Assembly: GCA_029553165.1 (NCBI GenBank)
Contig: JAKPCT010000270.1
Coordinates: 1 to 64,000, forward strand
Direction: 5' to 3'
Length of the DNA: 64,000 bases
From: Bacillota bacterium
Lineage (GTDB): Bacteria > Bacillota > UBA4882 > UBA8346
Part shown: positions 3,924-11,688 of the stretch, piece by piece
Layout of the letters: each line of letters begins with the position of its first letter
How positions within the stretch are numbered: the stretch's first letter is position 1
Translations under genes and position numbers: made by a program
The notes under the pieces: generated by a model
Seen by the model: the letters and a program-made list of their open reading frames with translations, nothing else
Database searches by the model: none
Told to the model about the DNA's origin: nothing

Positions 3924-3951
3924 TTGACATGGAATTTCATCCCATGATAAC
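3924..3951 (+). promoter_or_regulatory. Promoter candidate for the rtcB leader
   Basis: TTGACA at 3924-3929 is followed 16 bases later by GATAAC at 3946-3951. The -35 is perfect and the -10 is imperfect. Confidence 0.5.
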
Positions 3952-4008
3952 ATATAAATGTTTTTAAGAATTAAAACTGTTGCGATTACAGTGATTGGAG
4001 TGGTGCAG

Positions 4009-4044
4009 ATGATTAAGCAATATAATGAGGTAATTGATTTATAA
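4009..4044 (+). CDS. 11-residue leader peptide (MIKQYNEVIDL)
   Basis: ATG 4009 follows TTGGAGTGGTGCAG, a strong Shine-Dalgarno with about 6 bases of spacing, and runs 11 codons to TAA 4044. It lies between the promoter candidate and the first hairpins of the leader. The peptide has no run of one amino acid, so classical amino-acid attenuation is unlikely. Ribosome stalling on it could change the folding of the RNA that follows. Expression is not proven; the evidence is the ribosome site and its position. Confidence 0.45.
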   Translation: MIKQYNEVIDL

Positions 4045-4055
4045 TTTAATATCAG

Positions 4056-4187
4056 ACCATGAAAGGACTAATGTAACAAGAGATTAGTCTCGTTGGGTGC
4101 TATCATGGTTAATTCTTGCCAGTAACCGTCACTTAATAGTGCTATAAAAGCCTGTTTAAGCACACGATATGGTTATCGTGTTTTTTT
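4056..4187 (+). ncRNA. Structured leader RNA ending in an intrinsic terminator
   Basis: ACCATGA (4056) pairs with TCATGGT (4103). Inside it GACTAAT (4066) pairs with ATTAGTC (4083). GTGCT and TAAA (4139-4148) pair with TTTA and AGCAC (4155-4163). ACACGATA (4162) pairs with TATCGTGT (4174), followed by seven T residues. The AGCAC stem and the terminator stem share two bases, so they partly compete. A transcript stopping here would be about 230 nt long, either a free small RNA or the attenuated form of the operon mRNA. Confidence 0.55.
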
Positions 4188-4211
4188 ATTGCCTAAATTA
4201 AACAGCCAAAT

Positions 4212-4280
4212 GACTTCGGACAATATCAGTCCCAAGTCAGGAACAACACTAAACCGTGGTTACCAATCACGGTATTTTTA
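4212..4280 (+). terminator. Second hairpin pair before rtcB, possible attenuator
   Basis: GACTT-C-GGAC at 4212-4221 pairs with GTCC-C-AAGTC at 4229-4238, with matched single-base bulges. Then ACCGTG (4253) pairs with CACGGT (4268), followed by ATTTTTAT. The second hairpin could terminate a fraction of transcripts or protect the mRNA 5' end. Confidence 0.45.
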
Positions 4281-4323
4281 TACCCTTTTTTAAAAATTAC
4301 AATTAAGGAGAAACAATTTAAAT

Positions 4324-5433
4324 ATGAGTATTAATTCAAATGTCACTTTAATTTCCACAGCCAAAAACTGGCTTGAGCAAACAGCAATCGACCAACTCAA
4401 TCAGGTTAGTACCCTACCGGGTGTTGTAAAAGTAGTCGGATTACCGGATTTACATCCCGGAAAAACACCCGTCGGAGCTACGGTTATCACCGAAGAGATC
4501 ATTTATCCGCATCTAATTGGCAATGATATTGGCTGTGGTATGAGTATGTTTCTGACCGACCTGGAAACAAGAAAAATCAAAATTGATAAATTGGTTAAAA
4601 AAGCCGAGAACATACTTGATTTGAAAACAATCCCCCTTCCCGAAAGTATCGGTATGGATACCGATCTGCCATTCGCAGAAAGTATCGGGACTATTGGTGG
4701 CGGCAATCATTTTGCTGAACTTCAGACAACCGCTTCGGTGCTTGATAATGAAGTCTTTAAAAAACTTGGATTTGACAAAGATCAAGTCATGCTGCTGGTC
4801 CATAGTGGTTCACGCGGATATGGCCAAATGATCCTTGAAGAAAGCATCCGGCTCCACCACGCCCAAAAGGGATTGCCTCCAGCTTCTGAAGCTTTTAAGT
4901 GGTACCTGGCCCAACATGATGCTGTGACAAACTGGGCCACCCTAAACCGGGAATTAATCGCCTACCGGTTATTAAAAGCCATGGGAGTTAATCCCTTTGC
5001 AACCAAATTAATTGATTGTTTTCATAATATTATCCGGATTCAACAATCAGGGAACAATCCGTTATACTTCCACCACAAAGGTGCTGCCTGCACTATGCAA
5101 GAAGCAGTAATCATCCCTGGTTCACGCGGTTCACTTACCTATTTAGTGATACCAACTGCCAAGATTGAACTATCGGGTTATTCACTCGCGCATGGCGCCG
5201 GCCGCAAATGGGAACGTGGCAAGTGCAAATCACGGCTTGAAACCAGATACAACAAAGAAAGCATTAAAACTACCAAACTAAAAGGGCGGGTTATCTGTAA
5301 CGATCCTAACCTGCTTTTTGAAGAAGCTCCTGAAGCTTACAAAAATATTGATGCGGTAATTCAAAGTCTGGTTGACTTTGAGTTGATCGAAATAATTGCA
5401 ACTTTTAAACCAATCCTTACTTATAAAAATTAG
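4324..5433 (+). CDS. rtcB: RNA-splicing ligase RtcB (PrfH-linked type)
   Basis: RtcB joins RNA 2',3'-cyclic or 3'-phosphate ends to 5'-OH ends using GTP and Mn2+ through a covalent His-GMP. Visible motifs: GNDIGCGM (metal Asp and Cys), GGGNHFAEL, VHSGSRGYG, FHHKGA, and near the C-terminus SLAHGAGRKWERGK, which carries the guanylylated His. At 369 residues it is shorter than housekeeping RtcB (about 400-480), typical of the RtcB2 group paired with PrfH. prfH follows after a 9-base gap, and this pair is reported to repair 16S rRNA cleaved in the decoding centre. All catalytic motifs look intact. Confidence 0.95.
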   Translation: MSINSNVTLISTAKNWLEQTAIDQLNQVSTLPGVVKVVGLPDLHPGKTPVGATVITEEIIYPHLIGNDIGCGMSMFLTDLETRKIKIDKLVKKAENILDLKTIPLPESIGMDTDLPFAESIGTIGGGNHFAELQTTASVLDNEVFKKLGFDKDQVMLLVHSGSRGYGQMILEESIRLHHAQKGLPPASEAFKWYLAQHDAVTNWATLNRELIAYRLLKAMGVNPFATKLIDCFHNIIRIQQSGNNPLYFHHKGAACTMQEAVIIPGSRGSLTYLVIPTAKIELSGYSLAHGAGRKWERGKCKSRLETRYNKESIKTTKLKGRVICNDPNLLFEEAPEAYKNIDAVIQSLVDFELIEIIATFKPILTYKN

Positions 5434-6169: not shown

Positions 6170-7579
6170 TTAACCTATTAAGTACCCTTCTTCTTTCTTC
6201 TTCTCCAACCGTACGACACATTGTACTTGATAGGTTTGCGGATACATGTCAATCGGCTGAATTTCCATAGTTTGATACCCCAATTCGTCTAACCGCTTCA
6301 GATCCCGCGCCAAGGTACCAGGATTACTACTAACGTAGATGATTTTTCTTACCCCGGCTGCAGCAATCTTTTGCAACACTGCCAACTCACAACCTGGTTT
6401 CGGCGGATCAACAACTGCAATTTCAAACTTGAGATCATGCTCTAATAATTTCGCAATCATTTCATCAGCTTTACCAAGCAATAATTTAACATTATCCACT
6501 CTGTTGGAAGCAGCGTTCTCAGCAGCATCCTGGATTGTTTCAGGACAAACTTCAATACCATAAACCAGCTGTGCTTTTTTGGCTAACGGTAAACTTAAAG
6601 TCCCAACACCACAATAAGCATCAACCACAATCTCATTTCCCTCAAGCGCTGCATACTCAAGTACTTTTTGGGATAATACTTCAGCTTGTCCGGAGTTAAT
6701 CGGGAAGAATGACCGCGCTGAAATCTTATATGTAAATCCACCAATTTCATCTGATATTGAATCGGTTCCGGCTAAAACACGAGAATCTTTTCCAAAGATC
6801 GAACGTCCTTTGTTAGGATTAATATTTTGAACTACACCTTTAATCGCCGGAAAACTGACTATTAACTCTTCGGCAAACCTTTCCCCGAATTCGAATTCAC
6901 TGCCGTTGGTAATTAAAATAACCAGCACTTCTCCGGATTTCAAAGCCATTCTAATCATAACATGACGTAAAAGACCGGTTCCTGTCTGTTCGTCATAAGG
7001 AGTAACTTGATAAATCTCGGATAACTCTTTGATCTTCTGTGTAATCCAATTAACAGACAAAATTTGTAACAAACATTCCTGACAAGTCACAATCTGCCCG
7101 GTATCACGCTGATAAAATCCTATTTTTGGGGTTTTACCTGCTTCCCCACCAACAGGGTATTGGACCATATTTCGATAATACCAAGGTTTTTTCATCCCGT
7201 TCATCCCAATCGTAGGATGAACTAAAACATTGGTAAAATTGGCAATCCGCTCAACCGCATCAATAACCTGTTGCCGTTTCATTGTCAATTGCGCCTGATA
7301 ATCCATGTGTTGCAATTGACATCCCGTACACTCGCCATAGATCGGACATTGGGGTTGAACCCGTTCCGAGGATAAAGTCAAAATTTCACTTAAAACAGCC
7401 TTCGCATGCTTTTTGTTTACTTCAACTATTTTAACTAAAACTTTTTCGCCCTTTAATCCTCCAAACACATGGATTGGAAATCCTTGATAACTTCCAATAC
7501 CTTCCCCTTCATACCCATAATTATCAATCGTCAACTCAATAACATCATTAATCGATACCGGTACAGCTACAGTTTCCAT
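6170..7579 (-). CDS. TrmA/RlmD-family RNA methyltransferase lacking catalytic Cys and Glu
   Basis: The family makes m5U in rRNA or tRNA with SAM. A TRAM domain (about 8-66) precedes the 4Fe-4S ligands C-X5-C-X2-C in QCPIYGECTGCQ, with the fourth Cys in CQECLLQ. The SAM motif VDAYCGVGTLSLPLAKKA is intact and the acceptor motif is VVDPPKPGCE. The motif that normally reads YVSCNPxTLARD is YVSSNPGTLARD, so the nucleophilic Cys is Ser. The general-base Glu of the GHLE/HVE motif is Gln (QTYQVQC). The frame is intact over a family-typical 469 residues. It may bind RNA without methylating, or use different chemistry. See the paralog at 10306. Confidence 0.85.
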   Translation of the reverse strand: METVAVPVSINDVIELTIDNYGYEGEGIGSYQGFPIHVFGGLKGEKVLVKIVEVNKKHAKAVLSEILTLSSERVQPQCPIYGECTGCQLQHMDYQAQLTMKRQQVIDAVERIANFTNVLVHPTIGMNGMKKPWYYRNMVQYPVGGEAGKTPKIGFYQRDTGQIVTCQECLLQILSVNWITQKIKELSEIYQVTPYDEQTGTGLLRHVMIRMALKSGEVLVILITNGSEFEFGERFAEELIVSFPAIKGVVQNINPNKGRSIFGKDSRVLAGTDSISDEIGGFTYKISARSFFPINSGQAEVLSQKVLEYAALEGNEIVVDAYCGVGTLSLPLAKKAQLVYGIEVCPETIQDAAENAASNRVDNVKLLLGKADEMIAKLLEHDLKFEIAVVDPPKPGCELAVLQKIAAAGVRKIIYVSSNPGTLARDLKRLDELGYQTMEIQPIDMYPQTYQVQCVVRLEKKKEEGYLIG

Positions 7580-10305: not shown

Positions 10306-11688
10306 TCAAACCCTTTCCAGTTTAGCAACACACTCGACAAAATGGGTTTGAGGACGTAAATCTACTGGTTGAATCTCAATTATCTTATATCCATACTCGC
10401 TCAACAGCTTCAAATCATGTGCTAAAGTTCCCGGATTATAACTTACATAAACAACCCTCTTAATCATTGCATTAGCAATATTCTTTAATACACTGGGTTC
10501 ACAACCCGAACGGGGCGGATCAAGGACCGCAACATCAAATTTGAATCCTTGATTTATCAACTCTGGTAAAACCTTTTCAGTTCTTCCCAGAATAAACTGC
10601 ACATTATTAATGTTATTCAACGCAACATTTTCCCTGGCATCCTGAAACGCTTCCGGCAGATATTCAATCCCAAAAACAAACCGGGCTTTTCGGGCTAACA
10701 TCAAACTTAGAACCCCAATTCCACAGTAGGCATCAAGCACTGACTCAGTTCCGGTTAAACCTGCATATTTCAGAATTTCCTTGTATAAGACAATCGTCTG
10801 CACCGGACTGCTCCGATAAAACGACTTCAATGAGAAGCAAAATTTAATATCATCCACTTTATCAGTAATTCGGCTCGAACCGGCTAAAACCCGGTTCTCT
10901 TTTCCAAAGATTGTCCTGTCACGCGAAACATTAATATTCTGAATCACACTCTTAACTGCCGGAAAGTTCACCATTAATTCTAACGCAAATCGCTCTCCAT
11001 AAGGAAATTCCGCGCCGTTGGTAACCAAAATAACCATAATCTCATCGGTATAATAACCGATTCTGATCATAATATGCCTTAAAAGACCGGTTCCATCCGC
11101 TTCATTATAAGCCGAAAAACCATAGATCTTAACGATCTCCTTCAGTTTTTGGCTGATCCAATTGGCAATCATTGGTTGAGTCACACATTCTTTGGTTGTT
11201 ACAATTTCTTGGGTGTCTTTATGACCAAAACCCATAATTAACTCGTTATCATCCGATCGACCCACCCAATAATGCAGTCGGTTAAGATAAAACCAGGGTT
11301 TCTTCATTCCAATAGTCGGATGAACCAAAACACCCTTAAATTCCGCTATTCGCTCAATTGCATTAACAATCAGTTGCCATTTCATGATTAATTGAGCTTT
11401 ATATTCCATGTGTTGCAGATTACAACCACCGCATAGTCCATAAATCCGGCAGAAAGGCTTATTACGGTCAACCGATCTGACCAAAACATTGGCTAAAACA
11501 CCCTGTGCCGAATTACCCCTGATCTCTGTTATTTTGGCCTGAATCCTTTCTCCATACAAAGCTCCGGGGACAAACACAGTAAAACCATGATAACGACCGG
11601 CGCCGACTCCTTCATAACCATAGTCATTAATGGTTAAATCAATAATCTGACCAATTTGCAAAGACGAATCTCTATTTTTAGCACTCAT
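10306..11688 (-). CDS. Second TrmA/RlmD-family protein lacking the catalytic Cys
   Basis: A 460-residue paralog of the gene at 6170, with the same layout: TRAM domain (about 11-70), 4Fe-4S ligands in FCRIYGLCGGCNLQ plus the Cys of TKECVTQ, SAM motif LDAYCGIGVLSLMLARKA and acceptor motif VLDPPRSGCE. The catalytic motif reads YVSYNPGTLAHD, so Tyr replaces the nucleophilic Cys, while the general base is kept (THFVEC). Two intact frames that both lost the same residue, with different replacements, argue against a chance mutation. Its RNA target is unknown. The paralog and a shared terminator sequence point to a duplication that included the 3' flank. Confidence 0.85.
   Translation of the reverse strand: MSAKNRDSSLQIGQIIDLTINDYGYEGVGAGRYHGFTVFVPGALYGERIQAKITEIRGNSAQGVLANVLVRSVDRNKPFCRIYGLCGGCNLQHMEYKAQLIMKWQLIVNAIERIAEFKGVLVHPTIGMKKPWFYLNRLHYWVGRSDDNELIMGFGHKDTQEIVTTKECVTQPMIANWISQKLKEIVKIYGFSAYNEADGTGLLRHIMIRIGYYTDEIMVILVTNGAEFPYGERFALELMVNFPAVKSVIQNINVSRDRTIFGKENRVLAGSSRITDKVDDIKFCFSLKSFYRSSPVQTIVLYKEILKYAGLTGTESVLDAYCGIGVLSLMLARKARFVFGIEYLPEAFQDARENVALNNINNVQFILGRTEKVLPELINQGFKFDVAVLDPPRSGCEPSVLKNIANAMIKRVVYVSYNPGTLAHDLKLLSEYGYKIIEIQPVDLRPQTHFVECVAKLERV

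Follow-up and report, generated by a model that had tools for sequence, protein, structure and literature searches.

In the window, by which we mean the whole 64,000-nucleotide stretch of DNA analyzed, an RNA ligase gene of the release-factor-associated RtcB family (416 bits against NCBIfam model TIGR03073, cut-off 271.8) is directly followed by prfH (240.5 bits against TIGR03072, cut-off 166.65), the layout of an RtcB-PrfH operon, and both scores bear out the gene assignments made in the first-pass annotation. A leader (3924-4323) with its own short ORF and a series of possible RNA pairings precedes the pair, and its features are collected in Table 1. Two side observations concern the surroundings. 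The 13 nt between the rtcB Shine-Dalgarno (SD) sequence AAGGAG (within 4305-4326) and the ATG make an unusually long spacing, which is seen again in the relatives L062 and L135 introduced below. Further downstream, two similar, paralogue-like RlmD/RumA-like methyltransferase genes (6170-7579 and 10306-11688) lie on either side of a hydroxylamine-reductase-like gene.

Table 1. Features of the rtcB-prfH leader and operon in the window.
Feature	Position	Strand	Remarks
Sigma-A type promoter, TTGACA-18-TAACAT	3924..3953	+	TTGACA promoters 5' of the ORF in 9/9 leaders
P1 5' arm AGUGA, immediately 5' of leader SD	3990..3994	+	Pairs with 4129-4133; read from sequence
Leader-ORF SD, GGAG	3997..4000	+	SD present in 9/9 leaders
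Leader ORF ATGATTAAGCAATATAATGAGGTAATTGATTTATAA, 11 codons plus stop, MIKQYNEVIDL	4009..4044	+	11-12-codon ORF in nine homologous leaders
Internal SD-like GAGG, last G 8 nt before last sense codon	4027..4030	+	Same register in 13/13 leaders, many of them related
P2 hairpin (4055-4062 with 4103-4110), type I leaders only	4055..4110	+	Stem at the same place with different sequence in L062 and L135
Switch strand S, GTAACCGTCAC	4122..4132	+	Invariant in type I; complement of T2 apex; compensatory changes in type II
P1 3' arm UCACU, directly 3' of S core	4129..4133	+	Read from sequence; position common to nine leaders
Terminator T1, CACGAT..ATCGTG, U7	4162..4187	+	Stem sequence nearly constant in nine leaders; TTGCC next in most
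Terminator T2, apex complementary to S	4253..4281	+	Stem covaries across nine leaders
rtcB, release-factor-associated RNA ligase family TIGR03073	4324..5433	+	Above cut-off
prfH, peptide chain release factor H, TIGR03072	5443..6072	+	Above cut-off; starts 9 nt after rtcB end

The first-pass annotation had described a promoter candidate, a short ORF with a strong ribosome site and two terminator-like hairpins ahead of rtcB. Taken alone, the promoter match is within chance (1 found versus 2.4 expected). The two hairpins compare with a shuffle expectation of 0.2, the folding of the whole leader beats 100 of 100 dinucleotide shuffles (z = -2.9), and the window GGAG is positioned 8 nt before the leader ATG. 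A scan of GTDB genomes for PrfH yielded one close relative (L062; 67% identity, with other neighbor genes) whose leader shows the same arrangement and has GAGGTAATT..TTTATAATTTAATATCAGACCA, GTAACCGTCAC, T1 and T2 in common with the window, and family searches added L126 and L127, then L135, L136 and L139, and L144 and L145. All eight lie before rtcB in other Bacillota genomes. Together with the window they form nine homologous leaders, every one placed before rtcB-prfH and every one carrying a promoter of the sigma-A type, a good SD followed by an ORF of 11-12 codons, T1 and a covarying T2. Promoter and short ORF are thus conserved elements, as are the two terminators. Type I leaders (window, L062, L135 and L136) contain the P2 hairpin and the switch strand GTAACCGTCAC, and type II leaders (L126, L127, L139, L144 and L145) use ACAACC as the switch strand and have no P2. 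Given that a covariance model trained on type II alone detects both L062 (E 1e-5) and the window (E 0.002), the two types are homologous. The comparison among relatives that had been suggested for this locus finds the ORF, the terminators and the switch pairings kept in nine operons, an outcome in favor of the first-pass reading. On a wider scale, leader ORFs of other kinds stand before rtcB-prfH in a further Bacillota genus, in E. coli and in Proteus.

The leader appears specific to this operon. Across 301 genomes of the class, the type II model found rtcB leaders only, bar one weak match of 33 bits in G665, which was rejected as a leader copy, since it adjoins an enolase gene and has none of the leader parts. 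The T1 pattern occurred in 1 of 399 genomes of the phylum, and that one occurrence is before rtcB. Given that the leader is present as a single copy in its own genome and that scanning class and phylum genomes by pattern and by covariance model found no true copy away from rtcB-prfH, a mobile or multi-copy element was rejected. Ten pattern matches in IMG/VR look like chance matches in coding DNA. Comparison with Rfam, including riboswitches, T-boxes and other known leaders, gave sub-threshold chance matches and none at gathering score, so that identity with a known RNA was also rejected. It could be argued that there is nothing special here, with a chance short ORF and two terminators merely insulating rtcB from upstream transcription, as each element is common alone and the promoter match is within chance. 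We consider this very improbable, because the promoter lies upstream of T1 and T2 and inside the same unit, and because conservation of the architecture in nine operons contradicts it.

The nine leader peptides (MIKQYNEVIDL, MTVTINYEVISL, MTIRISFEVNGL, MIIRISFEVNGL, MLVMNHFKVNRI, MFAIFIFKVNRI, MLVIVNFAVNEI, MLVCNNEVTEN and MLGTETLKVNLI) vary in sequence, although ORF length is fixed at 11 or 12 codons. Rather than the peptide, the constant feature is a GG whose second G precedes the last sense codon by exactly 8 nt, in a region with a local pairing energy of -7.0 to -11.3 kcal/mol toward the 3' end of 16S rRNA. This internal-SD register is a point newly added to the earlier observation. It is also found in four leaders of another Bacillota genus (L091, L092, L094 and L128), in which 17-18-codon ORFs ending in (S/T)EELLI before the stop codon carry GGAGG at the same register and RtcB is only about 26% identical to that of the window. 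T1 and T2 are absent from these four leaders, and the ORF is nonetheless kept. In the same four, the ORF is located about 25 nt before the apparent rtcB start and no intrinsic terminator was seen, an arrangement that would point to translational coupling. The register is thereby present in 13/13 leaders, including the four with different peptides from an unrelated rtcB-prfH subtype; many of the 13 being related, this count amounts to a handful of independent cases. As background, 17 of 401 ordinary long-ORF 3' ends (4%) pass the same test, and so do 0.1-4.4% of codon shuffles of the leaders themselves.

Several familiar uses of a short ORF were considered. The internal SD as the start signal of a second ORF was rejected, with no conserved start codon following the motif among the leaders. 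The leader peptides contain no run of codons for a single amino acid, as an amino-acid attenuator would have, and no conserved stalling motif of the kind found in arrest-peptide leaders (erm or SecM type); the sole residue constant among the nine is a Val whose codon overlaps the GG motif, and the other Bacillota genus lacks it. For a prfB-type frameshift, a CTTTGA slippery site was looked for and is missing, the ORFs ending in TTA TAA, ATT TAA, AAC TAA or ATA TAG, and rtcB is an ORF separate from the leader ORF rather than its +1 continuation. Frameshifting or read-through at the leader stop into T1 or T2 was rejected, because the other frames close soon in several leaders.

Downstream of the ORF, the T2 stems covary (ACCGUG, CCGUGG, GCCGCAGC and CUACGGCA with their complements). 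The complementarity between S and the T2 apex is maintained by compensatory changes, namely GUAACC:GGUUAC in type I, ACAACC:GGUUGU in L144 and CAACCA:UGGUUG in L126, L127 and L139, with one mismatch in L145. The ORF, its SD, the internal-SD register, T1, T2 and the S:T2 complementarity are accordingly all conserved. A further pairing, P1, connects the nucleotides immediately 5' of the leader SD with those that immediately follow S. It reads AGUGA:UCACU in the window, UCAGGUGA:UCACCUGA for L062, GGUGA:UCACC for L135 and AUAUUAGGC:GCCUAAUAU for most of the type II leaders. Within type II, formal covariation of P1 is weak, as there are too few independent changes to count. Two other ideas were discarded: that of S with the T1 loop, which is lost in L062, L135, L136 and L145, and mimicry of the 16S 3' end by GUAACCGU and UCACC, a resemblance not kept in type II leaders.

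T1 behaves differently from the other stems. Its stem and the TTGC(C/T) after the U run (4162-4197 in the window, with equivalents in the other eight) hardly vary while the other stems do, and this block with its TTGCC is conserved far beyond the needs of an ordinary terminator. No conserved anti-T1 pairing was found in the leaders. Pairing of the TTGCC with the internal GGTRA motif is possible on sequence, and would be rich in G-U pairs. Such constancy would be expected if a protein or a second RNA bound the block CACGAT..ATCGTG-U7-TTGCC and thereby controlled the operon, with the ORF secondary. We find this improbable, given that it leaves the constant ORF length and the internal-SD register unexplained and that the ORF is kept in the other Bacillota genus, whose leaders have no T1.

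How a ribosome on the ORF could act on these pairings was modeled by folding. Equilibrium folding with ribosome-masked leaders was rejected as proof of a switch, because both T1 and T2 form irrespective of the masked region. Nascent-RNA folding considers the leader as it exists before the 3' arm of T2, and the figures given here are for the type II leaders L126, L127, L139 and L144, in a nested model that makes P1 and S:T2 exclusive by construction. The predicted probability of S:T2-apex pairing in the free leader was 0.00 for L126, L139 and L144 and 0.66 for L127. With a ribosome at the stop codon it was 0.00-0.01, with a ribosome at the AUG 0.17-1.00, and with both positions occupied 1.00 in all four. 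In most type II leaders P1 was still intact with a ribosome three codons into the ORF. Type I leaders, the window included, showed no clean ribosome effect in nascent folding. In these models the anti-T2 function of S appears well motivated, and we infer that ribosomes control S; folding alone does not prove the switch, nor does it by itself yield on/off behavior in the models.

That S:T2 formation in type II is complete only when ribosomes sit at both the start and the stop would also fit a termination sensor with PrfH feedback resembling prfB. In such a scheme the internal SD pins a ribosome with the leader stop codon in the A-site; RF1 or RF2 releases intact ribosomes, a damaged one waits, and the queue behind it opens P1, keeping the operon on until PrfH clears the stop. 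The constant GG register points the same way, being shared by the unrelated subtype and rare in the 4% background. However, cleaved ribosomes are expected to halt before codon 11 (PMC2615495), there is no slippery site as in prfB (PMC12421855), and action of PrfH on the leader is putative. We regard this scheme as possible but rather doubtful, and it is compatible in part with the translation-attenuator explanation. Polarity could also be the opposite of that proposed below. If no ribosome were loaded, P1 would form, stack on S:T2-apex as a pseudoknot and block T2, so that normal leader translation would keep the operon off and the leader would sense loss of initiation-competent ribosomes. The 3' arm of P1 lies 0-3 nt from S in 9/9 leaders as read from the sequence, as in coaxially stacked pseudoknots, and a pseudoknot containing both P1 and S:T2 is sterically possible because the arms are adjacent. 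Nevertheless, opposite polarity requires this hypothetical pseudoknot, and E3-cleaved ribosomes still initiate (PMC2615495), making it unlikely.

Between a conserved ORF with start, SD and stop and the rtcB gene stand intrinsic terminators, which are the parts of an attenuator. We consider that the leader could be a transcription attenuator governed by translation of its 11-12-codon ORF in the manner of vmlR. We give this about even chances, and a translation-sensing attenuator of some kind would seem well supported by the anatomy. Ribosomes cleaved by colicin E3 initiate at about 75% of control and can form a few peptide bonds, with essentially no peptide expected beyond about 8 residues (PMC2615495), and RtcB2-PrfH protects E. 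coli from colicin E3 (PMC9223846). Because initiation persists while peptides end at about 8 residues, a strong-SD ORF of 11-12 codons should load cleaved ribosomes and not let them finish. Intact ribosomes would translate the whole leader ORF and may then be held at the stop codon by the internal SD. The leader start being unoccupied, P1 could form, S would not be engaged with T2, and T2, along with T1, would end transcription. By contrast, ribosomes cut at the decoding center would initiate on the ORF without being able to complete it; waiting at its start, or in line behind a ribosome that is blocked, they would keep P1 open. S would then pair with the T2 apex ahead of synthesis of the T2 3' arm and, with T1 presumably passed, rtcB-prfH would be transcribed. 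That start-held ribosomes open P1, free S and block T2 is taken by analogy with vmlR and toiL. As for the internal SD, it may retain intact ribosomes at the stop (off) or pin uncleared ones there (on, with PrfH feedback).

A more specific, and more tentative, proposal is a ribosome-integrity sensor, in which the SD-like element, placed at one initiation-type spacing from the final sense codon in an ORF of fixed length, tells intact ribosomes from those cut at the decoding center, turning the operon on directly and off via PrfH, with separate rtcB-prfH lineages having converged on it. The first-pass annotation had already suggested the leader ORF as a sensor of damaged ribosomes. The attenuator anatomy of that suggestion stands as conserved, and the damaged-ribosome signal we still infer, with help from published kinetics (PMC2615495), which leaves the sensing of damaged ribosomes in particular as a plausible hypothesis. 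In the literature searched, neither the sensing of ribosomes broken at the decoding center nor the timing of RtcB-PrfH is described. A conserved leader in which ORF length, internal SD register and terminator pairings are each constrained represents a concrete candidate for a cis-acting sensor. If true, damage to rRNA would be linked directly to transcription of the repair genes, and the SD-before-stop arrangement would gain a regulatory role outside prfB.

Leader ORFs before rtcB-prfH are common, not universal. No leader was seen in G377 (L093) or in Kordia (L065 read), where rtcB is immediately preceded by another gene. The pair is tightly spaced elsewhere, but in Kordia (L063-L067) roughly 0.8-1.2 kb separates the end of the RtcB match from prfH, with something between the two genes. 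The E. coli RtcB2-PrfH operon has the same gene pair (PMC9223846, PMC1586002) and a short strong-SD ORF just upstream of rtcB; a search of these published descriptions found no mention of a leader ORF. The E. coli and Proteus leaders (L131:1726-1860 and L134:1735-1860) differ from the Bacillota ones in their ORFs, which follow a near-perfect SD (AAGGAGGT) and encode MTNPLSMTLCRPFQD and MTTTNMNTLCGQSQK, each ended by a stop codon, and they lack T1, T2 and an internal SD at the Bacillota register. Their SD can pair with its own ORF (CUGCAAGGAG:CUCUUUGC(A/G)G), a pairing excluded by a second hairpin whose base covaries (GCAGAC:GUCUGC and GCGGAC:GUCCGC), and a ribosome modeled at the AUG shifts both leaders, in folding, from the SD:ORF pairing to the second hairpin.

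Among described regulators, the autoregulatory frameshift of prfB (RF2) resembles the rtcB leader in placing an internal SD-like sequence shortly before an early stop in the transcript of a release factor (PMC12421855), whereas the rtcB leader has no CTTTGA, another spacing, a separate ORF and transcriptional terminators. The toiL uORF of E. coli topAI-yjhQ is also short; it senses ribosome trouble of several kinds, and stalling at different positions induces (PMC12121999). However, toiL unmasks a ribosome-binding site with Rho termination and is without tandem intrinsic terminators. In Bacillus subtilis, the vmlR leader likewise combines a uORF, an intrinsic terminator and alternative structures before a gene countering translation trouble, and a ribosome stalled on its uORF keeps an anti-antiterminator from forming (PMC9226507). 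Gene and sequence are different there, and the rtcB leader is distinguished by two terminators, a strand pairing with the T2 apex and an internal SD before the uORF stop.
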